DNA of 64,000 nt from Mesodorylaimus sp. YZB2_4. Lineage: Eukaryota > Nematoda > Enoplea > Dorylaimida > Dorylaimidae. Under the pieces are notes generated by a model, which saw only the letters and a program-made list of their open reading frames with translations, made no database searches and had not been told where the DNA came from. The translations under genes and the position numbers were made by a program. The stretch covers positions 62,001 through 126,000 of the forward strand of contig JASANH010000389.1 of the NCBI GenBank assembly GCA_030248295.1, in the 5' to 3' direction. Below are positions 5,339 through 32,248 of the stretch, one piece after another; the first letter of the stretch is position 1; every line of letters starts with the position of its first letter.

Positions 5339-8300
5339 TTATTTCATCTTCTCATAGATCGCCTGTATCGCGAAGACCACTATCTCGAATACTGAGAGCA
5401 CGCACATATTCAGCCACATTCCCACGTTCGCGAAAATGTCTGATGCTAATTGGAAAATCTAAACGAAGTCAATCAAAACTGGTTACTACCTTTACTATTC
5501 ATTCTTACATACCGTGTATTGGGCATAACCAATGATTCGTGTGGTGGTCATTGATCCATAGTAGACATCCACACGGCTGTACGTTTTACTAGAGATAAAG
5601 AGTATTAAGATTCGGTATTCAAAAAACAGCGTCAAGATGACCTACTGTAAGTGTTTTTTACATGCAGTCGCTTCAGCGTCTGACTTGCCTCCGCACATGG
5701 GAGGCTAACGATAAGAAGAGTGAGAAGTACTCGCACCTTGTCAGAATCGAAATCCTAAGCAGTTTTACCTCAAAGCTGGGGGACGGCCAAAGTGCTTTAG
5801 TTTCTGCAGGTCTGTAGATCGTCGAGCTAAAGCAGAAAACGGGTGAGCAATCGATTAACTACCTGCCAGCTGATCGTACCTGCATGCGGGCAGACATCCG
5901 CAGTTGGGCATGGACACGAAGCTAGCCGCCTGCTCAATGACTGCATCAACACACGCTTCTGAAAGTGGGCTTTCAATTAAGCTCTTCTCAGCTTGCGCAC
6001 ATCCTTACTTTTGGTTATGCCGCAGTGTACGCTGCCAGCTGGTACAGGATAAAGTGGATCCCCGCAGTTGCATTCTTGGATAACCAGTCTCTGGTAGCAG
6101 CTCACCATGCAAGTCTGACGAAGGAACGATGGGCCGCATGCTTTATCAAGAGTTACCAAAACTTTACCTCGAGGGAGTAGGACTTGTTCGGGTATAAAAT
6201 AGGCCCTTTTGCTGTCGTGTTTGTATAACATGCCTTGTAGGGTTCGCCTGGCAGCATGACCTGGGTCTAGAAAAATGACGGCTGTTATTCCTCGTCAAGT
6301 GATGCAGTACCCGCCCCAACAGGGGACCACTTACTTTGCTTATCGAGAAACTGTAGTATTCTCCAGAAGAGCAAGTGATGCCTGACATGCCCATTATTGG
6401 CTCTTCATCCGGTTCATGAAACATAATCTTGTATCCACTGCTCAAAATATTAGGGAGGAAATCGCTTGAGGGCATGTGAAACACCATCCTCAACCCCATC
6501 GTCGTCCCGCCTCTTTTTGTGCTACGGCTTTCAAATTCAGGCAGGAAAGTGAAGCAGTTTCCATAAGCCGGATCAAGGTACGGCCGAATTTCTCTGCACA
6601 AGAAGTAAAGACAGCATGTGCTGATTGCGGGTGCAAATATCCTACTTGGTAAGATTGCAAAGGCGGCCTCCATATCGACACCAGAAGATAAATTCGCTCA
6701 TTTGATAACCCAAAGAGTAGCGGAGGCTGTGATTTAATGCACTCGCGAGATACGGCAGGGCATCTTGCAATTGGCTAGACCAAGGAAGCATACCCGACAA
6801 ATCAGGAGGCTGAAATAGAACTGCCCTTGACAAAATCATAGGCGGAAATGCTAGAACCTTACTGTGGGAATGGCAGGCATTCCTTCGCCTGCACTGGTAG
6901 TTGAAACACTGGTCGTTTCTTGATGCAATGATTTAGGTTCGAGAAATTCTTGTTTTGCTGGTGTTGATGATGGGGAAAACGAGGCCAGGAGCTGCTTGGA
7001 CTCGGCAGACTCACCAACTTCAAAAATATCACTTTGAGGAGAAGTGGTTGTTGGGATCGCCATCCAGCGTTTGCGATCAATGAGTGTCTGCCTCCCTGTC
7101 GTAGAAGTTTGATCAAAACCAGAGGGGGTTTTGCGGGAGCTTGAATTAGCTTGTGTTAATGATGGCAGAACTGATCTTCCCGCTCCTGCGCTAAAGTCTG
7201 GCAGGCCTATTGTCGGGTCTCGCACGCTATGCCTCGAGGGGATTTGGCTAGGCGTTGTGGTTAGGAGGTCATAAAAACTTTGCGAAGATAGATGGCCATC
7301 TGCCAGCGGGGTAGCAGCAGTGGTGCTTCTGTGATCAGGGCAGAGGAAGGGGATGCCACAGGGCTCAATGGTTGTAGGCCTCACAGATTGTTCTCTTGTG
7401 AGTAATGCAATAGGTGTGGATGTGGCTAATTTTGGATATGACTCAATCGGTGGATTTTGTCTTGTGGTTAGCGTCGATTTTAACTGTGATAGTGCTAAGA
7501 ACAATTTAGTTTTATTAGAGGATAGACAGGTGGTAGAAGTGGTGGCCTCCAATTCATCTTCAGCGACAGAAGGAGTGCTAGAGAGGACATCTGCCCGCAA
7601 GATGGATCTTGTCATTCTAACCAGACTCGCTGTTTGAACATGCCCGCTTATCGCATCCGCGAGCGGCGTCTCATATGTTTGGGGCTCCTCACGTCCTTGT
7701 GGAGTATCAAATACTGGCTCGGTCGGAATCTTCTCTTCGGGCCATGCAACTGTAGTTGCAAGGAATTGACTCTGTGATAAGTCGAGGAAAGATGTAGTGG
7801 ATGCTGTGTTTGTTAGGGATGTGATGCCAGATGCCATCGCTCTGTCCTGAGGCATCTGGAAGCTTTTCCTGGTCGAGCCCTTACGCCTGCGTGAAAAGCC
7901 ACGCTCACGACTAGTAGTTGTGTGCATTGTTTCCCAAAACGAAACTGCCAGAGCGCTGCTCGTATCCGAGGTGTGTCCTAGCCGTTCAGTGGAGGTTGGA
8001 CTAGCCAATATGTCACTATAATGTTCGGTCGGCTCACGATCAGAAGTGGGGCTAATTGTGAGAGCTGGGAATGCAAGCATAACTGGGAGCCTGGTCTTCG
8101 GTTTCAGGATCCTAACTTTTGTGATGCTGCCAGTGGAAACATCAGGAGTTGTCGTTGCTTCTAAACTCGTCGGCGAAGATGACTTAATCATGTCAGATAA
8201 GGTAGAAGTAGTGGATGAGGGGAGCAAGGAGGTCAGAAACTGGCTGGACTTTGCGGACTCGCCAACCTCAATAATATCCCTTTGGATAAAAGTGGATGTT

Positions 8301-11300
8301 GTAACCTCCATCAAGCCTTTGCGATCAATTAGGTTTGTCGTCTCAAGAGAGGTGCTGCCAAGCTCTTCTGTTACTATAAGAAGATGTGGATTTTCTGATC
8401 TTGAAAATGTGGAGGTCTGGGTCTCGACGTCAGTGGCTGATAAGGATGTTGCGTCTTGTGAAGAAACACTTGATTCTTGAACGAGCCAAGAGGTTGTTGT
8501 TGCTTCTAGCGTAGTAGATAGCAATGGTGCACGAGACTTGGGTGTTGTATTGGTTGTGGGCAATGGCGACGATTCAGACTCTGTTGTTGGTAAGATGTAC
8601 GATTCGCTTGCGCTTGTTTGGGGTTGACTAGAGGTGATGACGGATAGGGAGTCCTGTCCGCTAGCAGTCGTATGGGCTCTGGTTGAGGTCATAGCAGATG
8701 TGGTCGCAATGTAGGGAGTAAATGCAAAATCGGTTACAAAAGCGACTGGTGGGTTGGTTCTCTTTTTTTTAATTCGCTGGACACTTGCACTAGTAACAGC
8801 CGCAGCAGAGGTTGTTTCTTTTGTAGTACTAGATCCGGCCATGTTAGCTTGATCTTCAGTCCTGGTGATAGCTGAGTCAGTAGAAGAAAACGATGTACTG
8901 ATTTTTTCACTAGTAACTTGTGGAGGTTCTGTCATAGTGGAAGAGGAGGGTTGCGATGTCGTGCCTGTTACTAGATTTGAAGGTGAGAACGCCGAGGGCT
9001 CGATTGCCATTGCTGTTAGCTCATTTCTTTTTACAGTCTTTGTTTCAGAGCTGCTAGTTTCCGTTGACACCATTACTTCTGTGGTAGCAACAGTCGATGC
9101 ACTTGTAGTTGAGTCATCTGAGGGCATTGTAGATGTTCGAGTTAAAGGCGTAGGTGTGACTTTAGTGCTTCTTTCAGCGGCTGTTTGAGATTTTGTCGAT
9201 GTTGCTTTTACTTCTGTGGTGATACGCGAAGTGGTGGGTGAGTGATCTGGGGGCACTGCAGCTGTAGATAGCGAAGGTGTGACTTTAGTTCTTCTTTCAG
9301 TACTTGGAGGCTCGGTAGATATTGCCAAAGGTGCTGTTGCAGCAGCAAACTGGCTTGGGAGCGTTGTAGGGAACGTACTTGAGTACACAGTCGACTGTTT
9401 GGGAGCAGATGTTGCTGGTTGGCTTATGGTTCGTGTCCTTGGTTCCCTGACTGTTGCTGCTGCTCGGGCCGAGGATTGGGGCAGCGTTGCAGACGAAGTT
9501 ATGCCAATTGTGGTAGTACCTCTTTCACTAATTAGTGTTGTTGTCATAGGCACAGGCAAGCTGCTCGTTGAGACAGATGGGGATGAACTCACTCTTAAAT
9601 TAGCTGCCGTAAGCGGGATACTGCTGCTTGTGCTGGTGCTCGTTGTATGAGGGCTGCTGGTCGCAGCTGTCGCACTATTCGAGGCAGTGTGCGTTTGTTT
9701 GAGGGTAGAAATAGTTTCAGCAGGAGTGTTAGTTGTGGTGTAGGTTTCAGTACTTAAAGTACTATTGCTAGGGGTGGTGCCACGAGAAGTAGTGGCGGAG
9801 TTGGGAGTTGTATGAAGAACACGAGAGTTGGTAAAACTAGGAGTTGTGTGCATAGAAGTCTGTGCTTTCGTTGAGTTTACCACCATGGCAGCCGACGAAA
9901 TGGTTCTTCCACTGCTGCTGCTCGTTTGCGTCTTTGTACTCTTTACCATTTCTGTCGTAGTCGCAGATGAAGACGCGGTTGTGACTGTAGTTGAGTGCCT
10001 GATATATGATGCTGATGTATTTGTACTCACGCCTAAGCTGGTTGAAGAAAGCTGTGTTGAAACCCAGAAGATGCCGCTTGTCGCTGGAAGTGTTGAAGTT
10101 TTTGTTGCAGCCGTGGTTTTCAAGGACGACGCGGCGTTTGTCGAGCTGCTCGTGATCAGGTCAGGTTTCGAGGTAGTACTTGTTAACGCGCTGGTCGTGC
10201 TGCTACTTGTGGCCAGTGTCGAAGTTGCAGCTGCATTAATGGTTGTTGAAGGTGTTGTGACTATTGTCGAACTGCTGGTGGGCGTTGCAAGCGTCGTGGT
10301 ACTCGTATTTGCGGCTGTTCGTTGAACTTGGGTGGTGGGGCTGCTGTTTTCAAGGACAGTTGAAGTTCCTTCTAAATAAGTAGGTGCTGTGGGCGACATA
10401 TTTTTAGTCGAACTGATCGAGGCTACAGCAGCCGGAACAGTCACCGCGCTGCTGCTCGTAGTTGTTAGAAGTTCAGAGGCGGCTGTTGAAGGCGTTGTGG
10501 CTTTATTCGACGAGCTGGTGGCCAATCCAGGTGCCGTGACTATTGTCGAACTGCTGGTGGCCGTCGTAGTACTCATATTTGCGGTTGATCGTGGAACCTG
10601 GGTACTGCTGCTGATCGCAGGAAATGTTGAAGTTGTTGAATCAGTAGCTGTCGAGGGTAATGTACTTTTAGTCGTACTGCTCGAGCCTAATGGTAAGGCA
10701 GCCGTAACAATTGCCTCACTGCTGCTCATAGTTGTTGAAAATGCAAAGGCGGTTGCTAAAGACGTTGCGGCTTTAGTCGACTCGCTGGTGGCCAATCCAG
10801 GTTCTGTGGTCCTTGCTGTCGAGACTGGTGTCATACTGATACTAGCACCTGTGAAAGGAGCAGTCGTGGTCATTGAAGACGTTGCGATTTTAGTTGGCTC
10901 GCTGAAGACCGTTGTAGATTTTGTGGTGGTTACTTTGGAAACAGATGTCGTGGGGAGTCTTGAGGTCGTAGCTGCATTTAAAGTTGTAGTTTCCGACGAA
11001 ATAGTAGTGGTTGTTCCAAACTCCGTGGTGCTAGAAAGGAACGTTGTCGTAATTTTTGGTGCTACAGTCGTGGATGCGACGCTGGTCATGTCTGGTGTCG
11101 TTTTTACTGAGATTGTACTCGAAACCATCGCAGTTGTCGACATCGCTAAAAAGAGAAAGAGTATATTGGCCGACTTTTTAATGCAATGGAACAAGAGCAC
11201 TGTACGCACCAATATAAATGTTTTGCTCCAGGAAGATCATAAGATCGGAGCATTCTGATTCAACGGTCCAGTTACGGATGACATGAGTTTGATTTAAAAA

Positions 11301-14300
11301 TGTGTCAACGTACGTCCAGTTCCAACGCACAACATCGGCGCCAACAGCAGTAAAACAAGCAGCGGTCGCACTTGGCACTCCAGTGGCAGTCGTATTTGAC
11401 AGGAGTGAAGGATTTTCGAGGTAAGCCGTCAGAGGGGCTGTATAATTGTCGAGCGGTCTGGATATATTTATTAGCTGCACTGATGAGTTGGCTATATTGC
11501 CGCACTTGTCGACGAGGTTCCATTCTCGAATAATGGTCGAGGAGCAAGTGGTCGAGTTCACTGTGTCTTGATATGTCAGGTTGTATGGCAGGCATCGCTG
11601 GTCGACAGTTGCCACAGCCAATTCAGGCTCGGATGCATTCTGTGGCGATGGGGAAGTCCATAAATCGCACGACACTAACTGACAGTCAGTCACATTGACT
11701 ATTGGAACAGTAGCGGCCAGGTCCTCGTCGATCAATCCATCGTTGTCGTCGTCGATGAAGTTTCTCACTTCTTCATCGATCCACCCATCGCAGTCGTTGT
11801 CCAATCTATCAGGAGGATTCGTGTCGGCTGACATATTGCAGAAATATGAAGCAGAATTCAGTAGTCTACTAGCTGTGTACGCATAGGAGCAGTAGTAGCC
11901 CACGCCATATGCAGTCACGCTGTACAGAACGCTGACATCTGGATGAGCGATTCTAAATGACTCTAATGACCCCGAACAAGTGAACGTATAGTAAAAGGCA
12001 CTCAACGAAGAGCCTGGAATCTTGCCCGCTGATGCGCCAAGAAACGGTTTGTTGTTTAACAGCAGGCCAGAAGCTTTGGTTGGGTCAATAATAACTGTCA
12101 AGTAGTGGCTGCTGTACTTCGGATTGCACGACACCAGAAAACAACCAGCTTTGAATGAATCTGTTGGGGGTATCAGGAGCAAGGATGGATCAGAGTCGCC
12201 ACCTGCACATCACGTCATATTTTATGGCCATGCATATTTTTTAAAGCTTTGAAACTTACCAACGTAATTTTGTGATGGCATTATTTGAGCTACCAGGATT
12301 GGCTTGCTTGAGGTTAAATAGGAGAGCTCGTTTAGCTGGGTCATTACGTGACGAAATTCACCCGCTCCAAGTGTGAACGTTTCATTAGTCACTGTTCCAT
12401 GGCGCGTGACCATTGTACCATCCATAGTAGCCAGTACTTTGAAGAGCTCAAACCGCTGCTTGCAGAATGTGGCGTTTCGGCAACACGTTGGTTTGCCAGT
12501 CGTCACACTTCTGCGTTTAAAAGGAACCAGCGGATATTTCATTCCGAAAGTAGTTGTGGGAGGGAGCTAAAATATCAGAAACGGTTAGCACAGTTCGCCA
12601 CAGCCGTTTTGTGATGGTTTTTCCCAGCAGGTTTCGCAGCGTGCTGGAGGTCACAAAACATGACTTTCAGAGGAAGCTCGGTAGGTGGGTGAGTACCAGG
12701 TTTTCCTATCGAGTTGTGGAACATACAAACGCATGTACAGCTCTGTACAACCACGAGAGTATCCTTATTTCCAAAAATGTTTGCTGGGTGAGGGACCGGC
12801 TCGGTCACCAAAAAAGATATAAGCTGGATAAAGAAAAGATGCCAGGACAGAGTGCATGCCTTCCTGAATATCAGCAACGTATTTGAGCAGAGGGTGGAAT
12901 CCTAGATTGTTCTTGCATCGTGTATTTTTATGGTGCATTGCAGAAATGAGAACCTTAAAAAATTCAAGAAATTTTTAGTGGTAGTGTCCACATGAGCACA
13001 TGTAGAGGCTCGACTGGCAGTCGATACTCTGCACGAAGCCGGCAACTAGGAACGTCACTCGTCAGGGTGACGTTTTAGCCATGTACTAGGTCGGAAGACT
13101 TGGTACATGGCTGGTCCAGTAGAAGTGTTTGCCATTTATTCATTGTCATTCTTTGTTCGGCAACCTCCCGCCTACAGTACGCCTGCCAGGCATGGTTACA
13201 ACATGCACCGAACGAGCATTATGTACAGTATATGTATGCAGTACAGAACGCTTCGAAGACGAAACGGCAGGGTGAAAGTGCCATAACGAAAACAGATACA
13301 AACTGCATGCAAATACTCTTCATCATTTAAGCTTACTTGCTCATAGACGATGTCGAAGGCGAAGCAGCCAGGCGGATAACTTAAAGCGTCACTTGCTGTG
13401 AGGACCGCGACGGGTGCGCTAGACTTAATTTTAACGCCTGTGGCATCTCCAGGGAAAGCCAGCTTAACCAGATCGTACTCATTCGCAGTTTTTGTGACCA
13501 TGGTACCATTGACGTAGGTAATGGCAATCGATGTCCCATTCGCAGTGGCTACAATGTAAACGTAGCTCATGCTTAGCTGGAATGTGTCTTCGGGAGTGTA
13601 GTCAACGCCAGCAACCAGGTAGTCCGTGCCAAGTGTGTCAAGTGGAAACAGCAAGGTACCATCCGAAGTGTAACTTCCGATATGCATGCTGTAGGCCACG
13701 AAATCGTACGCCGCCTCTATCTTTATGCATGCTTGAGCAGAGCTGAGCGGGATGTAGACCAGGTTCACTTTTGTGTTGTCGATTGTGACGGTCATCTTCA
13801 AACCAGTGGCTCGAGCTGTGATGTACACTGGGAATGGTGTGGCCGAATCAGTGGCTAACATTAGCTGCTGCTGAGGATTTTGACCGTAATACGCAGATAT
13901 GGAGTTCGGAAAAAAGGCCGTGTAGAACACTTTGCCCTCATTGTCATAGCCTGTAAATGTGCCAAACATGGTGTTCGTGGCTCAAAGAACAGAGAGTGAG
14001 CTAGTCGTAAATGGTAACTGACAATGAGTACATGGCCTCATACAGTATTCCTACCCACCCCCCGCTTAGCGCGCAATTGATGCGCCTTATATGTACTGTG
14101 TATAATATCCTGATCGGGTCAAATCTACCCGCCGAACCTTCCTTTGGTGACCTTCCTGTTACCCAGTCTCTGCTGGGTACTGACGGGTAGCCAAAATACG
14201 TATGTACTGCATGCGGGCTTTTCATTCATCAAGGTATTCGCTTCCCGAACAAAGGCTTTTCACTTAGCTTTCGAAATTGCAATACGAAGCCAAAGCCAGT

Positions 14301-15112
14301 TTAAAAATTTCGGAATAAAGAGGAGGTGTGACTGTACTCGCCTTCATATCTTAAGGCGTCTGCCTCTCAGGCTGGGCGCGCACTAGAGAATAGGGTTCGA
14401 CTCACGCCCTGGTAAAAAAAATAGTCAAATATGTGCTCCTTTCCCCTCGAGTGCTTCTTATGGTGCTTGGCGATGGATGAAGCATGACATGACATCGTAT
14501 AGACCATATTTTGGGAGCGATATGCACACCCTAGTGCTATTAACAAGCCATCCTTGTAACACTGCTCTTACTTATGGCTCGTGGCCTCCTGATCGCCTGT
14601 TCATAAAGTTCTTGAAATGAATCTCTTTTTTCATCCGTCGTCGCCGGCTCAAGGTTCTTTGGTCCCGTTTTCAGGTCTTCAATGATTTGCTGGCTTCGAT
14701 TTCGGATCTAAACAATGCAAGATTTTGTACCTCAACCTTGTATTGTCGAGCTGTGCGGACTTACAGTATCGTAAAATTCTGGGGCTTTCTCTCGTATTGC
14801 TGAGACCTTGTAAGGATTCAAGCTGCATACGGATACGGCTGGAAATTCTAACGGATCACCGTCGATCTAAACTTCGAGTTTGAATTCCCACAGCAATAAA
14901 CTGAACTTATTATGTAAACTTACTGTAATCGTAGTGGCCAGAGGGTATTGGAGAAAGAAAAACAGCGATTGGATGAAGAAAATGAGGAAGAGAACAGTGC
15001 AAAAGACCACTGCGAATGACCATAATGCCTTAATAGCTGCTTTCTTAGCCTCAAGCAAGAGCGACACGATGCGAAGACTGGACCGAGAAAACGATCGCTG
15101 CAAGTCATCCAT
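5339..15112 (-). CDS. Giant DEG/ENaC-family channel with IgGFc-like, metal-binding-like and mucin ectodomain (copy B)
   Basis: Fifteen exons join in frame: 15112-14924, 14866-14765, 14707-14572, 13950-13337, 12566-12260, 12202-11210, 11145-6863, 6809-6646, 6593-6335, 6266-6168, 6114-6009, 5958-5880, 5826-5737, 5588-5513, 5458-5339 (7,617 nt, 2,538 aa). All donors are GT. Domain order: short basic N-terminus, membrane segment ending FFLQYPLATT, channel motif FPAVSVCSLNPYK (exon 2), IgGFc-binding-protein-like region (exons 4-6) with SDGTLLFPLDTLGTDY, Asp-rich segment LDNDCDGWIDEEVRN, Ser/Thr mucin of about 1,430 residues (exon 7), then the canonical ectodomain: GYQMSEFIFWCRYGGRLC, YGNCFTF, CYQRLVIQECNCGDPLYP, NCGCLPAC and WPSPSF. 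The second membrane segment is GMWLNMCVLSVFEIVVF. The family forms trimeric amiloride-sensitive Na+ or acid-gated channels in the plasma membrane. Odd points: the pore G-x-S is N-M-C, and the mucin sits inside the channel ectodomain. Ligand and gating are unknown. Confidence 0.85.
6863..11145 (-). other. Single mucin exon of copy B (about 1,427 codons)
   Basis: One uninterrupted 4.3-kb exon encodes mostly Thr, Ser, Ala, Pro and Val, the composition of an O-glycosylated mucin stalk. It is flanked by a CTTTTTAG acceptor and a GTAAGG donor in frame with the IgGFc/Asp-rich part before it and the Cys-rich channel ectodomain after it. It has no Cys-rich von Willebrand modules, so it is mucin-like by composition only. 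Two basic-proline motifs (about 8730-8785 and 8065-8115) interrupt the low-complexity sequence. Confidence 0.85.
14336..14480 (+). repeat. tRNA-derived SINE-like repeat, copy 1
   Basis: Contains AAGGCGTCTGCCTCTCAGG (box-A/anticodon-like region resembling a tRNA-Arg body), then GGTTCGACTC (box B) followed by CCTGGTAAA and a tail with TTTCCCCTCGAGTGC. Related copies at 36615-36740 and 46425-46555 share the same order. It sits in intron 3 of the channel gene at 15112-5339. Confidence 0.6.
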
Positions 15113-17645: not shown

Positions 17646-17654
17646 TTGTAAGTA

Positions 17655-18772: not shown

Positions 18773-19034
18773 TTGTAAGTATGCTGCTACAGTAGGCTAT
18801 TCGCAGAATGCTAATAGGTTTCTTGAGTTTGTCCTCTGAAAATTTCTTATTTACTCGCGGTGCCTTCAGCTGTCTTCAGGCATGCTGCAGTACATTAGAC
18901 AGAGGAGTGGTTTTATCACACATCACAATTAATGAATAGTGTTAAGTATACCATACACGGCGTAAGATAGGTCACTAAAAGCAAACGTTTCGTTTTCCTC
19001 AAGTGCCCCCCAGTGCATTCTTTGCCCATGTGCT

Positions 19035-22000
19035 CTACTTGATCATCTGATAAATGGCCAATGTGGGGAAAACGACCACCTCAAAAATTGAAATAGCGCA
19101 CAAATTCAACCAGAATCCAATGTTTGCAAAAGTGTCGGAGACCAGTTGCAGCATCTAAAGAAAATCTTGCTATGAATGGCTGGACTGCTGCGATAAAGCC
19201 TACTCACCGTATACTTCGCGTATCCAACAACACGGGTACTGGTCATAACCCCGTAATATATATCCACTCGACTGTGAGTTTTCCTGCAGTAAATGTCGAT
19301 TTCAATTTCGATTGCGGAATTAAAAACAAACTCTCCAACCTACTTCAGTTTTTCTTTACAGGATTCCAAATTCAGCCCTGATTTCCCTTCACACGTAGAC
19401 GGCTAAGGAAAGGCTATCAATTTTGATCTCGCCTCCCTCATGCAAACGCTGCAAAACCTACCATGAAGCTGGGCGATGGCCAGGCTGCTTTCGTCTGTTC
19501 CACGTTGTACATGGTGGAGCTGTAAAAGAGACCAAGATACAATGATGGTCGTATTTCATTCATCAGATGGTCCATACCTGCAAGACGGCTTGCACTGACA
19601 GTTGGACGTGCTGATGTAATCTGCTGCCCTGCTTGCAGCATCGTCAACACACGCTTCTTAAAAATCCATGGTTGGGGATCACCAAAAACGCTAAAGATCA
19701 ACCATTTCCTACTTTGAGTAATATTGCAGTGCACTCCTCCTTTGGGTAGTGGGTAGCGCGGGTCTCCGCACGAGCACAAACTCACGACCATCTGTTGGTA
19801 GCAACTGGCCATGCATGTCTAAAATGATGGGGTGTGAGGCGTGGAGTTTCCAATTATAAAAGCTAGATACTTCAATAGAATAAGATTTATTGGTGTAAAA
19901 AGTTTCTCCTTTAGTCGTTGTATTCGTGGAACAGGCTTTGTATGGCGCTCCTGGCAAGGTCACCTTTGTCTGGAACGAGAAAATAAACATACGTTTCAAA
20001 TGTTGTACCTAAATTTACTTTTTTGATCGAAAAACTGTAGTATTCGCCAGAAGAGCAAGTGATTCCAGCCATGGCCATAACGGGTTGCTCGTCAGGATCG
20101 TGAAATAACAGTTTGTATCCACTGCTCAGAATGAATGGCAGAAAATCCGAAGAGGGCATGTGGAATACCAATTTCAGTCCTAACTTTTGGCCAGCCCTTC
20201 GTGAAAAATGTGTGTTTGCAGTGGGATTGAACGTGAAGCAGTTACCGTAACTGGGGTCCAGGAACATTCGCATCTCTCTGGAAAAGTTAGGTATACTGTA
20301 ACAATGAGCATGCTACCACTGGGGGTCAATTTGTGCCTTACTGGGAAAAATTGCATTTGCGATCTCCATATTTGCATAGAACAACGAATTCGTCCATTTG
20401 ATATCCAAGGGAGGAAAGTACAGTGCTGTTCAAGTTCAATTCACTGATAAGGTAGGGCAGCGAGTCCTCCATTTGACTTGCCCAGGGCATAGTGTCAGAA
20501 AGCTTTGACGGCTAAAAAGCACCATATTTTGCTGTAGTTTTCCGTCTAGTCGCCCATACACTGTATCTTACAAAATGTCACGTTGATTAGGCAGGGGGTA
20601 CTTACCATGGGAATGCTTAGGTTACTTGACAGCTCTGCTTCCTCTGGTGGCAGTTTCCTCTGTGGGTCCTTTTCTGTTGTGGCCATGTCTCTGGCCGGTC
20701 CTGCAGTTGTTACGTGGTTGTGATTGTCGTAGTTTACAGCACTCGTAGTAGTGGCCAAGGAGTTCAGAGCTGGTTTAGTAGCGTGAGGTGATGATGTTTT
20801 TAAGATCTCGTGAGGTTGATCCAGTGGCACCTCCTGTTTTTTCAAGGGTGTGGATGGTAGAAATGGGGCAACCGACTCAAGCTCTGTTAGAGGAAAGGTC
20901 TGTGGAAAAAAGAAGCTTTTGTTTGTCATGGGAATAAGCTCATTTACTGAAATGCTGGCATTCTGTGATAGTTCAGAACGATTTGCAGTTGTGGCGATTG
21001 GCTGAGAAATGTAGGCATGATCAGTCATCTGCTTTTGCTGGCTTTCCGTACTGGGTGGGGACCATGATGGGATTGGAAGTGTGGATGTGTCAGATGTAAG
21101 GTCGCCTGGTAGTGAAATGCTGGTAGCGGCTCGCGCTATGTGTGCAGGTGGTGTCGCAGTTAACGCCATAGCTGATGCATGGGTACTACTGTTCGAGCTG
21201 TCTGCTGACTCTCCTGATAATATTTTAGGAGACAGCTGTTCGGTTTCTTGTAATGATAAAGTTGATACGAGCGTTTCCTCCCCCAAAGCAGTTGGATCTT
21301 CTGTTCCAAAGGCTAACGACACGGAAAACACGATTGGCTCATTTTTTGTAATTTCAAGGGGGAGTGTCATTCTAGACTGTTCCAAATGAGCCATTTCAGT
21401 TATGACTGTGACTGGCGGCAGCTCACGCGGCGAACTACGCGAGATTAGGGAGCCCACTTTGGTAGATAAATGTTCATCAAATCTTTCAAGACTCGGGTAA
21501 TTGTTGTTGGTGGTTGGCGATGCAGCTTGAGGACTAACCATGTCCCGTAAATCGGTGGTGACATGCGGCATAGGCGCGTGGTCGGGTATTGAATTGCGTG
21601 ATTTAACTCGTGTTCTTGTAACGTCAGGAGTACTTGAAGCAGTCTCGGTTTGTGCCTTCGTTTCTCTATCTGATTCGATCACTCTGGCTGGTGAGGCACT
21701 TGGATTTGGTGACGACTGCTCTATTCGGCGGGGCAGTTGCTCAGTAACCGAGTCTTTTGATTGTGCATTTGAAATAAGTGTGCTGACTGACCCAAGAATG
21801 GTTGTGGTCAAAGGTTCCTGTTCTCCCTTAGGAATGGTTGCAGAAGAGGTTGCCGGGGTGGAGGGCCACGTTTTGACGTGTGTCAGTGGTGATGGACCAG
21901 ACACTGAATAGGTCAAATCAGAGCTTGGTATTGACTTGGTCGCCCCAGAAATTGTGGTTTTCGTTGCACTTTGATCGCTTGAAACATTTTCAGAGAACGA

Positions 22001-25000
22001 GGTTTCTAGAGACGACAGGGACGACATAGCCTCTTTTGCTGTCACCATTGCCTCTGTTTCACTTTTTCGACCATCGTCAAATGCTGTAGTCAAAACAAAT
22101 TCTTCAGAAGTACTGGCTGCACGATTAGTAACTGTCGTTGCATTTATCATTGAACTTGAAGTGGTGATTGAATTTTGCTTCAATGATTCACTCGCAAACT
22201 GCGAAGACATGCCTGCTGACATCAGATGGCCAGAGAATCGTCTTTCCAGGTCAACGCTTGCGGAATGGTCAAGCGGGCCTGGGGTCGAAGCTGTGGTTCC
22301 CACCATTTCAGTTTTTGTCTCTACATACTTCTGTGCCTCGCCTTTAGTGCTAAGAAGAGCCTGCAGGTCCGTACGTTGGCTTGTCTCAAGCGGTTGACCT
22401 GAGGCTTGGTCGATACTGATTGCGACCTGGTTCGACGAAAAGTCAGCTGTCTGCAAGGCAGCGCTGTGTGCTTTCTCTGGAACTCTAGTTGTGACTTGTG
22501 CGGCAGTCTGGCCGAGCATATTCGTTTTAAACGTACTGATTCCTGCACTAAGAAGAGTCGTTTGAGAGGGCAGCTCCAGGGGGTTTGCAGCAGGGGTTCG
22601 TTGTTTCACGATTCTAAAGGAGCGTGATGTTGAAGTAGACAGTAACTCTTCTGTGGTATAACGGACAGGCAGCGTATCGTTTGGCATAGATGTCTCTGAA
22701 AACTCAGTAGTAGCAAGACTAGCTATTCTGTCAGTCTGCCTTGCTGTTGTTGTTTTAAAACTTTCAGCAGTCTCGGCAAAGGTGGGCAATTCTATGGGGA
22801 TGGCAGCACGAGTTCTCAACTTCCCTAATCGTTTCGGTGGGTGCGTTGTGGTCGTTGAGTGTACTAGGTTCCCTTCAGTCTCTATTGTAACCCCTAGTTC
22901 CCTAGTTGAGGTCGCTGCGCTGGTTTCAGGCTGCTCTGGGAAACTGCTTTCTATGCTCGCAAATGAATTGGCCATGCCTGTTATCTCTGGAGTGGCAGCA
23001 GAAGATAAAGCTTGAGCAGCTGAGCTTGGAATGACTTTATTTCTGCTGGTCATACCTCCTTCCAGTCCTGTATTACTAACTTGACTCTGTTCAGTGTTGC
23101 TGCTCAAAACATCTTGAGGCTCTCCTGAAGATGCTGAGCTCGTTGTGACAGAGTTTGATATGGTCTCGCCTAAGGTAGAACTGGTTTTCAGCAATGGGGA
23201 GGGGGTCATGGGCGCTATTACAGGAATTGGAGTGGGAGACCTTAGTTTTCGGGCCCTCCTTGAGGATAAGGTAGGGGTTGACGTTGACGTAGACAAACTT
23301 GTTGCTTCCTCCAAGGTTGACACACTCGTTCTTACAGTTTCTGCAGTTGATGGTAAGGGTGCCGAGGGCTGTAGTTTCATCGTGTGGTCTGGGGTTATGG
23401 TGATAGGCGAGAATTCCTTACGAGTACTTGTGGTTGCGTTCAAAGCAGCAACATCGGCTGTCAAAAAAACCGAAGTCAAGATTGCTGTGTGTGATGTTGT
23501 AGAAGTGTTGGATGAAAGAAATTTACCTGTTTGCTCAGTGTCGCTTCGACTTGTCGTGCTGACATGCCCTGATACGGTCATGGCAAAGTCTCCGTTTTGC
23601 ACACTTGAGGTTTCGGTACTCAGAATACTTCCTTCCATTTGAGCGGTACTGGTACTAACTGCAGAGGAGACTGGAACTGTTTTCGCTGATCTACTTGTCT
23701 TCATGGACGACTCACTTGCAGTTGAATTATCACGGGCTGTTCTGAAGGTCATTGTGTCTGCGGCAAAAGTGGTGGTAAGTTGGTTAGTGGTGGTGATGAG
23801 GGTCTTGGTCAGGTTATCTGAGCTTCGGATAATTGTGGGTGTGCCTGTGTTTGTTGCAATGGTGGTAATGGCTGGTATTGTGGCCGCGATAGGAATAGCA
23901 GGAGTTGGTGTAGTGATTGAGACCCAAGTAGTGGCAGCTGGCATTCTTGTGGTTGCGGGGGTCACTGTAGTGCGAGGTAGAGCTGAAGTGCTGGAGGTCG
24001 TACTTGTGGTAGGCAGAGATGTAGTGGTGGTAGCTGGAAATGTTGTTGTGGGGGATACCATGATAGTGGTAGCTGGAGCTATAGTAATAGAGGTCATTTC
24101 GATGGCAACTGGAATTGTAGTAGTGGAGGTCACGGAGTTGGTAGTTGCAGTTGTTGCAGTAGGGGAGGTCACTGTGGTGGCAGGTGCTGTTGTAGTGATG
24201 GAGGCCCTAGTGGTGATAGTTAAAGTTGTTGTAGTGGTGTGGGCCCCAGAGGTGATAGCTGGAGTTGTTGTAGTGGTGGGGGCCCTAGCGGTGGCAGCTG
24301 AAGTCGTTGTAGCGGTGGAGGCCCTAGTGGTGGTAGCTGGAGTTTTAGTGATGGAGGGCACTGTAATGGTAGCTGGAATTGTTGTAGTAGTGAAGGTAAC
24401 GGAGGTGGTAGTTGGAGTTGTTGCAGTGATGGAGGTGACTGTGGTGGCAGGTGCATCTGTAGTGATGGAGGCCCTAGTGGTGATAGTTGGAGTTGTTGTA
24501 GTGGTGGGGGCCCTAGTTGTGGTAGCTGGAGTTGCTGTAATGGTGAAGGCCCTAGTAGTGATAGCTGGAGTTGTTGTAGTGGCAGAGGTCACTGCGGTGG
24601 CAGGTGGAGTTGTAGTGGTGGAGGCCCTAGTGGTGGAGGTTGCTGGAGTTGTGGAGGTCACTGTGGTTGCAGATGGAGCTGCTCTAATTGTGGAGCTCAT
24701 TGAGGTGGTTGGCGGATTTGTATTGGTGGAGGTCACGGAGGTGGTAAGTGGTATTGTCGTGGTGGTGGAGGTCGTACTGGTCTCTAGGGAAGTAGTCGTA
24801 ATCGTAGTAGTTGGGACAGCCGTCGTTATGATTGTGGTAGTTGAAACATTGCTGTAAATCGTTGGCAAAGTTGATGAAGTGGTTGTCGAACCTACTGCTT
24901 CGCAAGCAAAAGTTACATATTAACTGCAGAAATGCAGGTCAGGGAACACAAGACAAAAACCACATACCTAGCACAATGTCTTGGTCCACATAAACCACAA

Positions 25001-28000
25001 TGCTAGAGCATGTTGACCGAATTGCCCAACAACGATGGACCAGTGTTTGGTTAATAAAGGTGTCAATGTATGTCCAGTTCCAAAGCTCGAATGCCTCCAT
25101 CTCAGCAACAGTAGAGCAAGCATCGGTGACAGCAGGCACTCCAGTCACGTTTGTATCTGACAGAAAAGATGTATCTTCCAGGTAAGCTGTCAGAGGCGCT
25201 GTGTAATTTCTTAATGGCCTGGATATATTTATTAGCTGCACAGCTGAGTCGGCTATATTTCCGCACTTGTCGACGAGATTCCATTCTCGAATAATGATGG
25301 AGGAGCAAGCTGTCGCGTTCATTGTGTCTTGATATGTCAGGTTGTATGGCAGGCATCGTGGGTCGACAGTTGCCACAGCCAATTCAGGATCAGATCCATT
25401 TTGCGGCGAGGGGGGAGTCCATAAATCGCACAACTCTAACTGGCAACCAGTCACATTGATTACTGGAACTTCAGCAGCCAGGTCCTCGTCGATTAATCCA
25501 TCGTTGTCATCGTCGATGAAATTCCGTATTTCTTCGTCGATCCATCCATCACAGTCATTATCAAGTCCATCAGGGGGGCTAGGGTCGGATGTCTTGTTGC
25601 AGAAATAGGAGCTAGGTCCAAGCAATCTCCCAGCAGTGTACGCATAAGAGCAGCTAACGCCTAATCCGTAAGCCACTACACTGAACATGACGCTGATATC
25701 GGGGTGCGCAATCCTGTATGAGGCCGGACTTCCATTGCAGGTGAACATATACTGATACGCGTTAAGCGTCGTCCCAGGAATTGGATTTGGCGTTACCGCA
25801 CCAAGGAAAGGTTTGTTGTTTAGCAGCAATCCAGTCGCTTTTGAACTTTCGATGACAACAGTCAAGTAGTGTTTTGTAAACATTGGGTTGCATGAGACGA
25901 TGGAGTAACTTTTACCAAACGCATCTGATGGAACCACGAATATCAGAGATGGATCCGACTCTTCGCCTACAATCAGGACATGAGAACAGAAAAACATCTG
26001 CGGTTTTTTGGTGCTAAGTAAAAGGGTTGTGAATATAGAACGTTTTGGTAATTGGTTCATGAATTTGTAGTCGATTTTATGGTGCATAAAGACAATGGGT
26101 TGTGAATATATGGCGGTTTTTGTTATTTGTTCATCAATTTGTAGCATTCCAGTTATATTCTTTCAGGGCATACTTAATATCCTCAGTTAAAATTGACTGA
26201 TTTCAGAAAATACTTCGTAAGCTAATTGCAATGGCTTGCTAAGGAACGGACAGAAACGAGAATGCGGGTTTATAAAAAGAAATTGGAATCAAAGATCTCT
26301 CAAAACAGCGAGAGAAGTCGAACATAACCAAGGACCTCGTATTATCATAACCACGGGTTGCTAAAAAGAAAAATAAAAACCTCTTTGGGCGCTTTGTGAG
26401 GTTATGTGAAGAAGATGCCGACCTTCTTACTGAGAAAAGACGACTTTCATCGTTGAAAGGTCTTTTTTGAGGTAAGTTTATTATTTAAAATCTAGTAGCT
26501 CCTGTTAGACACGAAATACTCTAAATTCCAGTGAGGTGTACAGTAAATCCATTGCTGAAAATATCCTTAATGTACTATGGCAGCCCACAGACTCCCATAC
26601 TACACTACTCATACTCCTATAATGCTGCATGTCTCTCAGTAAACGATATCTTCGTGTGATATGCTTACCTGTATACTGTGCGCTCTGCATAATATGAGCG
26701 ACTAAGATTGGATTGTTTGAAGTCAGGTAGGAGTATTCGGTCTGCAGTGTTCGAACGTCTTTGTACTGTCCTGAATTCAAATTAAAGGACTCATTGTTTG
26801 AGCTTCCATGACGATGCACTCTTGTTCCATCCATTAACGCCAAAACCTTGTAAAACTCGTACGGCTTTGAGCAGTCTTGATAATTCCAGCAGCACACTGG
26901 CTGGAATAGGAAGGAAGCTTGATGCTGAAATGGCGTTAGCGCAAATTTCATGCCAAATGTCGAGGTCGGTGGCAGCTAACAATAAAGATATAATTATAGC
27001 GAGACGTCCAAAATCACAGTAACTCCTCCATCGCATCCCAGGTTGGCCTCCTTCAAAACCTTATGTCTCAATCTCTTTTATTGCCAAGGTAAAACTGATA
27101 TGTGAAACAAGGCGGGGTGCTTTCCTGTTTCTTCTCCATAATTATGCTCTCCTGAATTATTTTCTCCTAATCTCTTCAAAAGCGCCTTTTCTTAGGATGC
27201 TGTAGATACAAGTGGAGCCCTACGAATAGGAACGTATATACTTTATATACCGAAGAATCCGTTTACAATGCACTTGTTCAAGATTCTGGGAGTGCCCCCA
27301 ATGTACCCCACCCACTTGCAGTTTATCCCCAGGTCAGTCCCTTTGAAATCGTACAGCCCAGATCAGTGGGGATGGATATGGTATGTCTGTTAAAGGAATA
27401 CATACAGTACAGGACAGGCGTACCTGATCTACCACAACATCGCAATATTTGCAATATGACGGATAAAATAAGCAGTCACTACCCGTCAGAACTGCAACAG
27501 GCTTGCTTGAAGATATTATCATTCCAGATCTATCCGAGTAATACTGCAATTGGATAACATCCATCTCCTGCAGAGCATATGAACTCGAAACGCCTCTTGT
27601 TGACCTAATATTCACTGCAGTTTCGTTAAATGCGGCAATAACATATACTAATGAATCCATGGAGCCATATGTAAATGCGCTCAATACCATGTATTCGGTC
27701 CCTAATACGTCAACCGGAAATAACATGGTACCATCGGCTGTTCCATTCCCAATGTGCATTGTGTAAGCTACGAAGTCATACGGCCCAGATATTTTTACGC
27801 CAGGACAGGCCAAAGCGTCGTCAGAAATATTGACCACGAATACTTGGGAGTTATCGATTGTTATTTGTGTTTCTTGGAAGATTGCGGAAGTTTTGACTGT
27901 AATGGTCACGACAAATGGCACTGCTGAGTCGGTTGATAGCATGAGTTGTTGTTCGGGAACGCTCTTCGCCATTGAATTCGGGAAAAAGGAAGTATAAAAA

Positions 28001-31000
28001 ACTTTTCCAGTGTTGTCTGGAGCACCTAAAGGCAACGGTGGCAAATTCATAAGCAAGTTATGGCAACGGGGAAAAACAAGCCTGTAAAATGATGGCAACA
28101 CCAGGGAAGTTTAATGGTTGAGAGTCGACATGTCGAAATGTCTGTAAGAATCGACACCGAATCAGCCAACATTGAAAAATGACCCCGCTATATTATTATA
28201 TACTGTATCTCGAAAGTAGATGCCATCAGGACCACGAAAACGATAATCATTTCGCGGCCAGATCAATAGTCATGGAACAGGACCCGTTCAAAAATTGTTG
28301 GTGTCCAAAAATGGGGGATTTGAAAAAGCCCTGATAGCTCAACTAATATGCAGTCGTGCAACTAACAAATGCGTGAATGAGATGAATTTTAGTGAAAATT
28401 CTTGCATGACCTTTTGTGTTCGATCCAATTTTGTCAATAATAGAAAGAGGCTGCTTTCTTCAAAACTTCAAGGGTCTGTAGAGAAAAAGGTGCTCTTTTT
28501 AATGAGGCTCGTCCGAATCAGTTTGGCCACATATTAGATGAGCTATTGAGGTTTTTTTTCAATACCCGCATTTTTTGGACACCAAAAATTTTTGAATGGG
28601 TCCTGTTTCATGTATATTAGATCCATACCTGGAGGTGAAACGATTATCGTTTTCGGGGTCCTCATGGCATCTGCTTTCAAATTATGTATAATATAGGGGG
28701 GGGGGGGCGAATCAATTTTCAAGGTTGGCCATTTTTTGGTCGAATCAGTCGATTCTTACTGACAGTGCCTCTTAACAGCTTTCCATTCTACAGCAGGGGC
28801 ATTTCGTCCGAACAAATTTTAAACTCAGCTATGGTTCACTAACAAACACTTGTTCCAAGCTTTACTGACTATGACTATTATAGTATTCTCGGCAGTTATC
28901 ATCGGCAGTTACTTAAAGTTTTCATGCATGGAACCCGGAGGAGAGACCTACCCATTTGACCTCATTGTGCAGGAATGAAATGAATTTTTTCTTTTTATTG
29001 ATTTCGAGCGATGTAAACTGATGGTAAAAATACTCTAACCAGCACGACTTTGACAGACCAGTCTCAAATACGCACTGCAGCACAAGACTGTAGGTGACCC
29101 TTTACATACGTACTGCAGGTCCCCCATCGCATACGGGTATATGTAGTTTTGCTTAGAGGACTCTATGTAATGGACACAACTTTACACCATGCGAATCAGT
29201 GCTTGAGGCACTTGAACACAACGTCAAACGAACATTAAATTAACTATTCCAACACCATACAGTAGCAGGGGTAGAAAACGAAGGGAGTTGAAATTGCACA
29301 TTGGCGTGCGAGCCAGCGTTGCCAGATGCAAAAATGAAAACTCGCTGCCAGGGACCTGAAAATCATCTAAAATTCCGCTGCCATATCTAAGAAATCCGCC
29401 GAAAATTTTTCCTCGAAAAAGCGATTTTTTAGCGACTAGTTTTAAATAAAACGCGGAGTAGAACAAATAGCGTTCACTCACACATCGCCCACAATGTGCA
29501 AGTCAATTTCAAGTGGGCCATGCTAGGGGCGAGGGACACCGGAAGGGCAAGGAGACCGAAGGGCAAAACGGGACGCCCTGACGCCCCCGACCACCTTACT
29601 CTGTCTAAATCTTATGCAAAGTGTGCAAGTTAGAGCACACAATACTGAAGGATGAGGAGCCAAGGACGAGCCGATCAAGAACCTGGGAGGTACGTGTGCC
29701 TGGCAATGGTCTAAAAAATTATTGCGTTCCCTATTTCATGCAACCCCACTCGTATAGTCGACCTTTCAGATCACAACACGCGGACAAAACTGCATCACGT
29801 CTTAGAAAAAGGGCATGCCGCTTTAAAAATGGTCGCACACAGGTTGCTGTAACCAGATTCACACCAATCCGCCAGAATCCGCCAAAAAACCCAAAATCCG
29901 CTGCTTATCCCGCTGTCGGGCAAAAAATCAGCCAGATCTAGCGGATTCTAGCTGCATCTGGCAACGCTGGTGCGAGCCCGCCTGGTGCATATTATTTTGA
30001 TTGACAGTTACATATTGTAGATAGACACCGGATCAGGTCGGGTTGACCCGACCCGCCCCGAAAGTCCCTGACCCGAAATTTCGGGCGGGTTGACCCGAAA
30101 TTATAGCAGCTGAAGTTCCCTGAGATAAAAACCTTTCACAAATCCTCAGAACATGCGGTGACTTTGCTGTAAAGGTGACCATGTGAAAAGGATGGAAGGG
30201 TTTTGATTATACGCACCCGAATTTTCATGTTTTGTTATCCCTAGTACACCTTCCAAAACAGCGTTCCTTCATAACGTTATTTCCGACTATAGTAGTCTAA
30301 TTATTTGAAAAATACCTTGGTAGATCTAGAGCGACTAAAGTCTGTCTGCTAGTCTTTAGCAAGATTTAATCAATCCAAATAATATTGACTACTTGCATGA
30401 ATTTTGCAATCAGACAGGCTATACTTGCTATTTGTAGGAATACCTATAGATATTGACACACCCAAGAATATGCATCTAGTCTTCACAAAAGGTACTGCTT
30501 ACAAAGTCATATTGTGCAGGAGTCATATAGCTCGTCAGAACATGGCTACTGATGGAGGAATGTAGGGGACTAAGACTTTCTAACACAGCGAACTGTTTCG
30601 CAATTGTGACGTGAATGGTGGTCGAGGGGACTATTATTGGTGCAAATTTTTTGTGGTTTGGGTTCGGACTGAATCGCAGGCTTTTCCAGCCAGGTCCCAA
30701 GACTTTACTTGTCACATTCAGGAATCAAATGTGATTGCAGATAATCCAACGACCTGCTATCAAAGATCATCAAGTCCTTCTCAGACTTTCGCTAGTCCCA
30801 CCCATTTATCAGAATTGCTAAGACTGTTAATAGGAGCTCTGAGATATCGACCTTTCCTTATGCAGAAATTACTCGGAAAATTCGCTCATTGTCACATCTT
30901 GCAATTTGTCTACATTCTTAAAAGTTACGCAGAATTAAAACATTGTAATGCAAGGCTCTATATGTACATGCATGCATGAGGCAAAGTCCGCAAATCCTGG

Positions 31001-32248
31001 AGTTAAACAGCTATGAAAAGGTTTTTGTAACTGTCAATAGTAGAAACTAGCAAAATTGCTGTATTTTTGACCCGTTTGACCCGATCTTTCAAAAAAGTGA
31101 CCCGACCCGATTCTGACCCGGCTTGACTCGACTCGAAATTTAGCTGACCCGACCCGACCCGACCCGACCCGAATATACCCGACCCGATCCGGGGTCGAAC
31201 TGTAGACACCGCGACCCGCTCATCAGTGATCTCATAGTAGATTACGGTATGCGCTGGCTCGTTAACATTTTTATGTAGTCTTGCATGACTGAAAGTCTTG
31301 AGTGATTGTCAGTGAAAGAGAACTAGGGCACCATCAGGAAATACCTCTACGTACCTTGAAACCGAAGCTCTAATTAGTTGGAAGGTGTGCCCCTGAATCA
31401 AGACCCCCCTCCCAGCGCTTGGGCTACTGTAGCGCAATGATAATATTGCGTCAGCTCCCATACAATCGCTTCGTAATTTAGTCCAAGGTTGGTGTGAGAT
31501 GACGGCACAGAGGAAAACAGATAAAATTTGACAGTTCGTTGCAGCGTGGCGTGGAAGCTACTGGTGTCAACAAAATTTGAGATCTGACGCGCAGGTTATT
31601 GAAAAATTGTATGCGCTTGATCGTGAGTGGCGCGCTGGATATGTCAGAAACTTCTGAAATCTAGAACTTACTTTTCAACGCTTGCACAGCGCGACGTTTC
31701 CGGATTAAAGGTTTTCGCTTTGAATAGTCATCAGAGATTGCGGTCAGGGACTGAGTGGGTGATTGCGAAAGATAGGACTGCCTCGGGTTGCCGCTTTGCG
31801 CTTCTCGAAGGATACGTTCGCTCTGGTTGGCCACCTACAGTATACAGAAAAGTTAGACTTATATCAGAGAATATAGGTCACAGACTGTAGGTCTCACTAC
31901 TCACTGCATTATATAATTGGGGTACAGTTTTCTTGATAGACGAGAGTTTGTAAGGATTCAGGCTGCAGATAGAGACTGATGGAAACTCCAAACGGTCCGT
32001 GTTGATCTGAAATCAATATGATTCTTTTAAGAAACTCAACCGCCACCAAATATCCTTACGATGACAGTGGTGCCGACTGGGTATTCGAGAAAGAATATCA
32101 GCGATTGAACGAAAAATGCCAGGAAAATCGACAGACTAAGTATGATAGCAAGTGCCCAAAACGCTTTGCCGGCTTGGTGCTTCGTTTCAGCAATGACTGC
32201 TGCCGCCCGAAGACTTGATCTTAGAAACGACTGCTTCACTTCATTCAT
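19035..32248 (-). CDS. Giant DEG/ENaC-family channel with IgGFc-like, metal-binding-like and mucin ectodomain (copy C)
   Basis: Fifteen exons join in frame: 32248-32060, 32006-31905, 31834-31672, 28025-27424, 26975-26669, 25966-24968, 24894-20606, 20511-20342, 20277-20019, 19969-19871, 19818-19713, 19656-19578, 19519-19448, 19283-19208, 19154-19035 (about 2,543 aa). Exon 13 needs a weak donor (GTTTGC) to keep frame; the better GTAGGT at 19461 does not. Start at 32248 (MNEVKQSF) is chosen because it aligns with MDDLQRSF of copy B. Domains match copy B: membrane segment ending FLEYPVGTTV, FPSVSICSLNPYK, IgGFc-like region, LDNDCDGWIDEEIRN, mucin of about 1,430 residues, GYQMDEFVVLCKYGDRKC, YGNCFTF, CYQQMVVSLCSCGDPRYP and NCQCKPSC. 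The second membrane segment is GFWLNLCAISIFEVVVF. Eight of the channel-core exons have the same length as in copy B (189, 102, 259, 99, 106, 79, 76, 120 nt). Intron 3 (31671-28026) is swollen by at least three mobile elements. Confidence 0.83.
20606..24894 (-). other. Single mucin exon of copy C, with a coding minisatellite
   Basis: A 4.3-kb exon of about 1,429 codons, Thr/Ser/Pro/Ala rich. Its N-terminal part (about 24780-24030) is a decayed tandem array of short units resembling TTTTPATTTRAS, visible in DNA as repeated CCCTAGTGGTGGTAGCTGGA-type units on the plus strand. The C-terminal two thirds are non-repetitive mucin with four basic-proline motifs (about 23215-23265, 22775-22830, 22575-22620, 21563-21613). 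Confidence 0.85.
28144..28759. mobile_element. Foldback/MITE element with GTAAGAATCGAC ends
   Basis: Begins GTAAGAATCGAC and ends GTCGATTCTTAC. About 180 bp at each end are inverted copies (for example CGAAAACGATAATC near 28236 and GATTATCGTTTTCGG near 28640). It lies in intron 3 of channel copy C, and its ends match the larger element at 33525-35834. Confidence 0.75.
29314..29969. mobile_element. hAT-like non-autonomous element with perfect 8-bp target duplication
   Basis: The element starts CAGCGTTGCCAGATGCA and ends TGCATCTGGCAACGCTG, an inverted repeat of the CAG...CTG hAT type. It is flanked on both sides by GTGCGAGC (29306-29313 and 29970-29977), an exact 8-bp duplication typical of hAT insertion. 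It is 656 bp long with no transposase and lies in intron 3 of channel copy C. Confidence 0.88.
30020..31200 (-). mobile_element. GGGTC-repeat mobile element, copy 2 (inverted relative to copy 1)
   Basis: Starts CACCGGATCAGGTCGGG and ends in a long GACCC array with CCGATCCGGGGTCGAACTG. The body is a diverged reverse complement of 17655-18772. TAGACACC occurs at both borders (about 30022 and 31202), which may be the target duplication or part of the terminus. It lies in intron 3 of channel copy C. Confidence 0.65.

Follow-up and report, generated by a model that had tools for sequence, protein, structure and literature searches.

Can a single nematode gene encode an ion channel of the DEG/ENaC family whose ectodomain is interrupted by an IgGFc-binding-like domain and a giant mucin? 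This question is raised by two minus-strand genes, here called gene A (15112-5339) and gene B (32248-19035), in a stretch of 64,000 nucleotides from Mesodorylaimus sp. YZB2_4 (assembly GCA_030248295.1, contig JASANH010000389.1, positions 62,001 to 126,000; hereafter the window). An initial annotation had read both as complete 15-exon channel genes, in which a first membrane segment is followed by an IgGFc-like region, an Asp-rich motif and a mucin before the channel ectodomain resumes. We find that this architecture, a channel split by a giant insert, is real at the DNA level. Both belong to the DEG/ENaC family and carry an extra ectodomain in the finger; this layout has survived intact in two paralogues of old origin.

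Gene models were built from the window sequence by reading the minus strand and joining exons at GT-AG sites. Gene A encodes 2,547 residues and gene B 2,558, each in one open frame from the start codon to a single terminal stop and without an internal stop, close to the 2,540 codons initially estimated. An in-frame TAA lies two codons 5' of the gene A ATG. The rebuilt models agree with the annotation in coordinates, strand, the succession of parts and their rough lengths, but not in the number of exons. Joining 15 exons leaves an internal stop after exon 14 in gene B, and in gene A a total that is, by arithmetic, not a multiple of three. Enumeration of the splice options between exons 13 and 15 revealed that both genes need an extra piece with a length of 2 modulo 3. 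A 59-nucleotide exon (A 5704-5646; B 19402-19344), equal in length and phase in A and B, closes both frames. In both copies its donor starts with GTAGGT, and the cysteine pattern matches, with the peptide P..C.GKS......CK..L. An 8-nucleotide exon at the same acceptor also fits both genes, and further choices fit one gene only; we prefer the 59-nucleotide exon because the GTAGGT donor and a similar peptide are common to both copies. Each gene thus has 16 exons. All 15 introns are GT-AG and have identical phases in the two paralogues, and exon length modulo 3 is identical for all 16 exons. Intron 3 measures 3,646 nucleotides in gene B versus 621 in gene A. The exons, together with a third, broken copy, are the following (TM1 and TM2, first and second transmembrane segments):

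14924-15112, minus strand: gene A exon 1, start codon, short cytosolic N-terminus, TM1 (hydropathy peak)
14765-14866, minus strand: gene A exon 2, FPAVSVC motif, ends in phase 0 (ASC match together with exon 1)
14572-14707, minus strand: gene A exon 3, 45-residue linker with RRPR (gene model)
13337-13950, minus strand: gene A exon 4, IgGFc_binding, first part (gene model and Pfam)
12260-12566, minus strand: gene A exon 5, IgGFc_binding, middle (gene model and Pfam)
11210-12202, minus strand: gene A exon 6, IgGFc_binding end (in the joined cassette only), acidic motif DNDCDGWIDEE / DDDNDGLIDED, HYR-like stretch
6863-11145, minus strand: gene A exon 7, mucin-like (composition, stop counts)
6646-6809, minus strand: gene A exon 8, channel ectodomain resumes, phase 0
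6335-6593, minus strand: gene A exon 9, YGNCFTF region
6168-6266, minus strand: gene A exon 10 (gene model)
6009-6114, minus strand: gene A exon 11, Cys-rich region
5880-5958, minus strand: gene A exon 12, Cys-rich region
5769-5826, minus strand: gene A exon 13 (gene model)
5646-5704, minus strand: gene A exon 14, 59 nucleotides, added to the 15-exon model (splice enumeration)
5513-5588, minus strand: gene A exon 15 (gene model)
5339-5458, minus strand: gene A exon 16, TM2 with N-M-C at the G-x-S site, stop codon
32060-32248, minus strand: gene B exon 1, start codon, TM1
31905-32006, minus strand: gene B exon 2, FPSVSIC motif, ends in phase 0
31672-31834, minus strand: gene B exon 3, 54-residue linker with RKRR (residues 142-145)
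27424-28025, minus strand: gene B exon 4, IgGFc_binding, first part (gene model and Pfam)
26669-26975, minus strand: gene B exon 5, IgGFc_binding, middle (gene model and Pfam)
24968-25966, minus strand: gene B exon 6, IgGFc_binding end, acidic motif, HYR-like stretch
20606-24894, minus strand: gene B exon 7, mucin-like (composition, stop counts)
20342-20511, minus strand: gene B exon 8, channel ectodomain resumes
20019-20277, minus strand: gene B exon 9 (gene model)
19871-19969, minus strand: gene B exon 10 (gene model)
19713-19818, minus strand: gene B exon 11 (gene model)
19578-19656, minus strand: gene B exon 12 (gene model)
19462-19519, minus strand: gene B exon 13 (gene model)
19344-19402, minus strand: gene B exon 14, 59 nucleotides, added to the 15-exon model (splice enumeration)
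19208-19283, minus strand: gene B exon 15 (gene model)
19035-19154, minus strand: gene B exon 16, TM2 with N-L-C at the G-x-S site, stop codon
1183-4337, minus strand: third, broken copy with parts matching TM1, IgGFc and the acidic motif, arranged as in A and B (tblastn, E up to 0.01)

The two ends of each protein belong to one channel domain. Exons 1-2, which contain TM1, matched the Pfam ASC profile (PF00858) alone with 47.9 and 50.0 bits in A and B, and exons 1-2 joined to exons 8-16 matched it in one stretch with 205.7 and 222.3 bits (cutoff 23.6). The joined match covers profile positions 17-455 and 5-455 of 455, a near-complete domain. Hydropathy revealed only two membrane segments per protein, one at each end (A 29-47 and 2524-2542; B 29-47 and 2535-2553). 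Among NCBIfam models the degenerin model TIGR00867 matched best, with 259.3 bits in A and 256.8 in B (curated cutoff 598.45), and the ENaC model TIGR00859 scored lower (190.6 and 210.3 bits; curated cutoff 428), so that both genes remain below both subfamily cutoffs. The nearest solved structures were ENaC beta, alpha and gamma (best E 1e-40, 2.6e-35 and 1.3e-33), followed by FaNaC and ASIC. Around the position of exons 3-7 the ENaC alignments are interrupted: residue 115 is followed by 235 in beta, 151 by 274 in alpha and 117 by 248 in gamma. They thereby skip 119, 122 and 130 ENaC residues, a stretch that we take to be the finger/GRIP region. The insert itself, exons 3-7, comprises 2,111 residues in A and 2,120 in B and is bounded by phase-0 introns. 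The domain names finger and GRIP are those applied to ENaC in passages of PMC8791634.

Within this cassette, the joined exons 4-6 matched the Pfam domain IgGFc_binding (PF17517) with 143.4 bits in A and 170 bits in B (cutoff 25.6), which places the annotated IgGFc-like region above the cutoff in both genes. In gene B the domain runs across exons 4, 5 and 6 in order (profile parts 1-118, 118-207 and 203-297); in gene A exon 4 alone matches positions 1-118 and the joined exons 1-261 of 297. The Pfam-defined domain begins 141 (A) and 151 (B) residues past exon 2, 45 and 54 of which lie in the exon 3 linker with its basic sites RRPR (A) and RKRR (B). By eye, the exon 4 frames hold no obvious signal peptide ahead of the domain. 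It is followed by the acidic motif PPDxLDNDCDGWIDEE...DDDNDGLIDED and then by the HYR-like stretch. Pfam detected no EGF domain in the parts scanned, namely exons 4-6, the mucin and the core, and a PDB profile search with the cassette returned no credible structure (best E 0.46). As to a bacterial origin of the cassette, considered and not adopted, one scan of genome contigs yielded 317 pattern matches, with 3 loci confirmed; both of its patterns lie within the acidic motif, and IgGFc relatives that lack this motif are invisible to it. A similar acidic motif, MopE-repeat-like by eye, was present in proteins of 3 Deltaproteobacteria records. In viral contigs, three pattern scans (22, 600 and 600 pattern matches) revealed no cassette relative.

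Exon 7 is 4,283 (A) and 4,289 (B) nucleotides long and contains no stop codon, where about 61.5 and 59.3 are expected from base composition; by chance, such a frame would have a log10 P of about -27 and -26. The other two minus frames across it have 62-85 stops, and the plus frames 20-132. The 1,428 and 1,430 residues encoded (48% and 45% Pro+Thr+Ser) correspond well to the mucin of about 1,430 residues in the initial annotation. The two mucins differ by only 2 residues in length, have three cysteines in A and none in B, and contain no family known to Pfam. Their 26% identity over 1,316 columns is no evidence of alignment for such a composition, and a dN/dS (nonsynonymous over synonymous substitution rate) of 0.16 for this exon was set aside because the two mucins do not align. 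Internal repeats, searched from 400 residues into each mucin onward, were found in gene B at residues 1476 and 1548 (score 22.5 versus a shuffled maximum of 17.3) and in gene A at residues 1735 and 2151 (27.5 versus 18.9), the latter spanning about 1718-1760 (NLIDRK...DIIEVGESAKSSQF) and about 2134-2176 (TLIDRK...DIFEVGESAESKQL). A basic repeat R-x-x-K-x-R-T/S, spotted by eye as common to both mucins, was dropped: the hand-made pattern has three full matches in B (shuffled mean 0.003) and none in A, and the best score of an unbiased 16-residue comparison between A and B was 14.9 versus a shuffled maximum of 17.6 (30 shuffles). Opposite the mucin exons, the plus strand carries long open frames at 23643-24857 (404 residues) and 10380-11258 (292 residues), and along exon 7 one of the plus frames is interrupted by only 20/21 stops; these antisense frames are probably a shadow of the mucin composition.

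Comparison of A with B gave ratios of nonsynonymous to synonymous differences per site (pN/pS) of 0.37 for exons 1-2, 0.38 for exons 4-6 (dN/dS 0.15), 0.28 for exons 8-16 and 0.25 for exon 16. By this measure purifying selection acts on the channel and IgGFc exons, and more weakly on exon 3 (0.61). At fourfold degenerate third positions of the channel core, identity is 0.24 over 85 sites, which equals random expectation; since these sites are randomised, the duplication of A and B is old. Fourfold identity in exon 6 reaches 0.79 in two 19-site windows, from A residues 602 and 652, and 0.60 over 20 sites from residue 702, a rise suggestive of recent gene conversion across the acidic motif and the HYR-like stretch (exon 6: 11210-12202 and 24968-25966). 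In the third copy, the regions matching exon 4 and exon 6 are each in three pieces and two frames, and FPGVSIS stands where A and B have FPxVSxC. No match to exons 8-16 was found by tblastn (E up to 0.01) in the window outside genes A and B. A transposon in the third copy was considered and rejected: an open reading frame at 254-21 looked transposase-like by eye but had no Pfam support.

The initial annotation had not noticed that pore motifs are missing. TM2 reads VGMWLNMCVLSVFE in gene A and IGFWLNLCAISIFE in gene B, and at the G/S-x-S site (GAS belt) we found N-M-C in A and N-L-C in B. The site was placed by comparison with gamma ENaC (LGLWMSCSVVCVIE), to which it aligns without gaps, and with two other channels in the window (LGLFVGGTILTIFQ). 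A HMMER alignment with beta ENaC opens a 3-residue gap here; the motif is absent either way. Exon 1 of both genes also lacks a His-Gly motif ahead of TM1. According to section 5 of PMC10148893, His-Gly and G-x-S are highly conserved in the DEG/ENaC family and implicated in gating and selectivity. Because both motifs are lost in both copies, ion conduction by these proteins is doubtful.

Our leading interpretation, to which we give an even chance, is a matrix-coupled, probably regulatory or anchoring DEG/ENaC subunit, nearest to the degenerins by profile, whose finger is replaced by the exon 3-7 cassette. The channel fold would trimerise, and the trimer would hold three large glycosylated loops on its outer face. 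By adhering to mucus, glycocalyx or cuticle matrix, these loops would link it to the channel's finger/palm, and the protein would act as a regulatory subunit, non-selective or non-conducting alone, beside ordinary subunits. The tether to mucus, glycocalyx or cuticle proposed initially is plausible. The mucin had been pictured as a stalk; since both of its ends are closed by the channel fold, the uncut mucin would instead be a loop leading from the IgGFc domain back to the channel. A stalk would form only after cleavage ahead of the mucin, for example at RKRR (B) or RRPR (A) within the linker encoded by exon 3. Such a protease cut would free the IgGFc head at the mucin's end, with the remainder staying on the pore-lining half. 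Cleavage of the linker is suggested by analogy with ENaC, and the two proteins together contain one strict furin consensus. In a bolder version, which we think rather unlikely, a DEG/ENaC trimer without selectivity and lower-gate motifs would be a platform for three giant adhesive mucin loops, and linker cleavage would turn these into long stalks with an IgGFc head, altering adhesion as well as the state of the channel assembly to which the protein belongs.

Several observations weigh against the matrix-coupled subunit. The core is not simply ENaC minus the finger, as it has about 34-40 residues of its own within the skipped gap. Gene A exon 6 alone gave no IgGFc_binding match in Pfam. The acidic motif scored 12-16.3 bits with MopE (PF11617; cutoff 27) and HYR_4C (PF23237) scored 11-16.7 bits (cutoff 27), which leaves the initial label 'metal-binding-like' weak. 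AlphaFold runs on single exons were unusable (mean predicted local distance difference test score, pLDDT, 34.8 for exon 6 and 51.6 for exon 4). Frame neutrality of exons 3-7 is weak evidence, since leaving out a run of exons preserves the frame of both genes in 37 of 105 cases. Expression as one transcript is predicted from the genomic sequence, as are glycosylation of the mucin, matrix binding, trimerisation and any current, and a gene boundary could hide within the long intron 3 of gene B. Finally, the doubt about conduction is deepened by results excerpted from PMC10424705, in which deletion of the GAS belt abolished the currents of DEL-9 and UNC-105.

These points bear on four alternatives, whose probabilities are not mutually exclusive. 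Tentatively, the proteins may be membrane mucins derived from a channel, with a non-conducting pore and a DEG/ENaC fold that serves only to anchor a glycocalyx adhesin as a two-pass trimer. The altered G-x-S site and absent His-Gly in both copies speak for this, as does the G-G-T kept by the two other channels of the window; besides the loss of current in the two nematode channels, parts of PMC10424705 report that the oocyte currents of EGAS-1 to -4 did not exceed those of controls. An abandoned pore is harder to reconcile with the purifying selection on TM2 and its surroundings (exon 16). An Asp before TM2 and a Glu within it are also invariant between A and B and may, by eye, occupy the positions of Asp433 and Glu451 of ASIC1 (names from section 5 of PMC10148893), and human gamma ENaC itself carries S-C-S at the G-x-S site.

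A further possibility, which we regard with similar reserve, is one gene with two products. As exons 3-7 are frame-neutral in both genes, with phase 0 at the end of exon 2 and the start of exon 8, skipping them would leave an ordinary subunit of 436 (A) or 438 (B) residues with a near-complete ASC domain, and the giant form would be minor or stage-specific. Against this stand the high base rate of frame-neutral runs and the conservation of exons 4-6, which indicates that the cassette is in use; the splicing itself is predicted from genomic DNA.

That the cassette is a giant inhibitory tract of a protease-gated, ENaC-type channel, removed by cuts in linker and mucin, appears improbable. Its insertion point lies within the finger/GRIP stretch, and the polybasic RKRR (B) and RRPR (A) past TM1 resemble site 1 of human gamma ENaC (RKRR) and the RSPR of turtle alpha, as given in excerpts of PMC8791634. 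In the same excerpts ENaC activation requires two cuts, whereas R-x-K/R-R, the furin consensus, is present a single time in B and never in A; the less strict R-x-x-R has 9 sites in B, where it is not rare, and 3 in A. Least probable is a joining artefact with TM1, IgGFc/mucin and channel exons as separate genes, which could draw on genomic models and the 3,646-nucleotide intron 3 of B but conflicts with one hydrophobic segment per end and none between in each gene, channel exons without a TM1 of their own, the same phases in A and B, the TM1-to-IgGFc order of the third copy and a gene A intron 3 of merely 621 nucleotides.

Compared with known systems, genes A and B share with DEG/ENaC channels TM1, FPxVSxC, a Cys-rich ectodomain, TM2 and a near-complete ASC profile, and depart from them by the finger insert, the lost G-x-S and His-Gly motifs and scores below the subfamily cutoffs. 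FCGBP, the IgGFc-binding protein, carries VWD repeats; A and B have the same IgGFc_binding domain (PF17517), but within a membrane protein, and Pfam found no VWD in exons 4-6 or the mucin. In membrane mucins the mucin part is generally an N-terminal stalk; A and B are likewise membrane proteins with a long Ser/Thr/Pro-rich ectodomain, but their mucin is internal. The title of one paper terms FCGBP a mucin-like glycoprotein. The comparison with nematode EGAS proteins (EGF plus ASC, as described in parts of PMC10424705) made in the initial annotation is loose: extra ectodomain modules on an ASC core are common to both, whereas A and B have IgGFc_binding and mucin in place of EGF, which Pfam did not find in exons 4-6, mucin or core. 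The insert also shares its place, and a polybasic site past TM1, with the inhibitory tracts in the finger/GRIP region of ENaC alpha and gamma (PMC8791634, in excerpt), but is about 17 times as long as the 119-130 ENaC residues skipped and has no second furin consensus. Among the matches listed from the open-licence literature (titles and abstract starts), no DEG/ENaC with an IgGFc domain or mucin was described, and those joining ENaC and IgGFc concerned human mucosa, tear and cancer topics only. An Ascaris 'IgGFc-binding protein' (PMC4046973, in excerpt) has an apolipophorin as best match there and was not used.

Elsewhere in the window, two tandem ASC genes lie on the plus strand (55418-57930 and 60163-61622). 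They are very divergent from A and B and keep G-G-T in TM2. As judged by eye, they resemble A and B in having a phase-0 intron directly ahead of the FPxVxxC-equivalent. An open reading frame at 53006-52524 (minus strand) matches the nematode cuticle collagen N-terminal domain. A sugar transporter gene (49113-50745, minus strand), an F-box gene (44146-45785, minus strand) with an LRR-like part below the LRR cutoff, a tandem array of about 14 copies of a 59-bp unit (46931-47779) and a Cys-rich open reading frame of 231 residues (37418-38110, plus strand; no Pfam match at E up to 0.01) were also present.

Matrix tethering of DEG/ENaC channels is a proposed model, put forward for touch, and in the examples given in parts of PMC10148893 the tether is a separate protein, as for MEC-4 with MEC-1, MEC-5 and MEC-9 or UNC-105 with the collagen LET-2. 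In genes A and B the matrix-type module sits in the channel polypeptide itself, within the finger, which is a regulatory region in relatives (ENaC inhibitory tracts; PMC8791634, in excerpt). If the genes are expressed as read, the tether idea would become directly testable on one covalent loop, and a channel fold could lose its pore signature and yet be maintained for another role.

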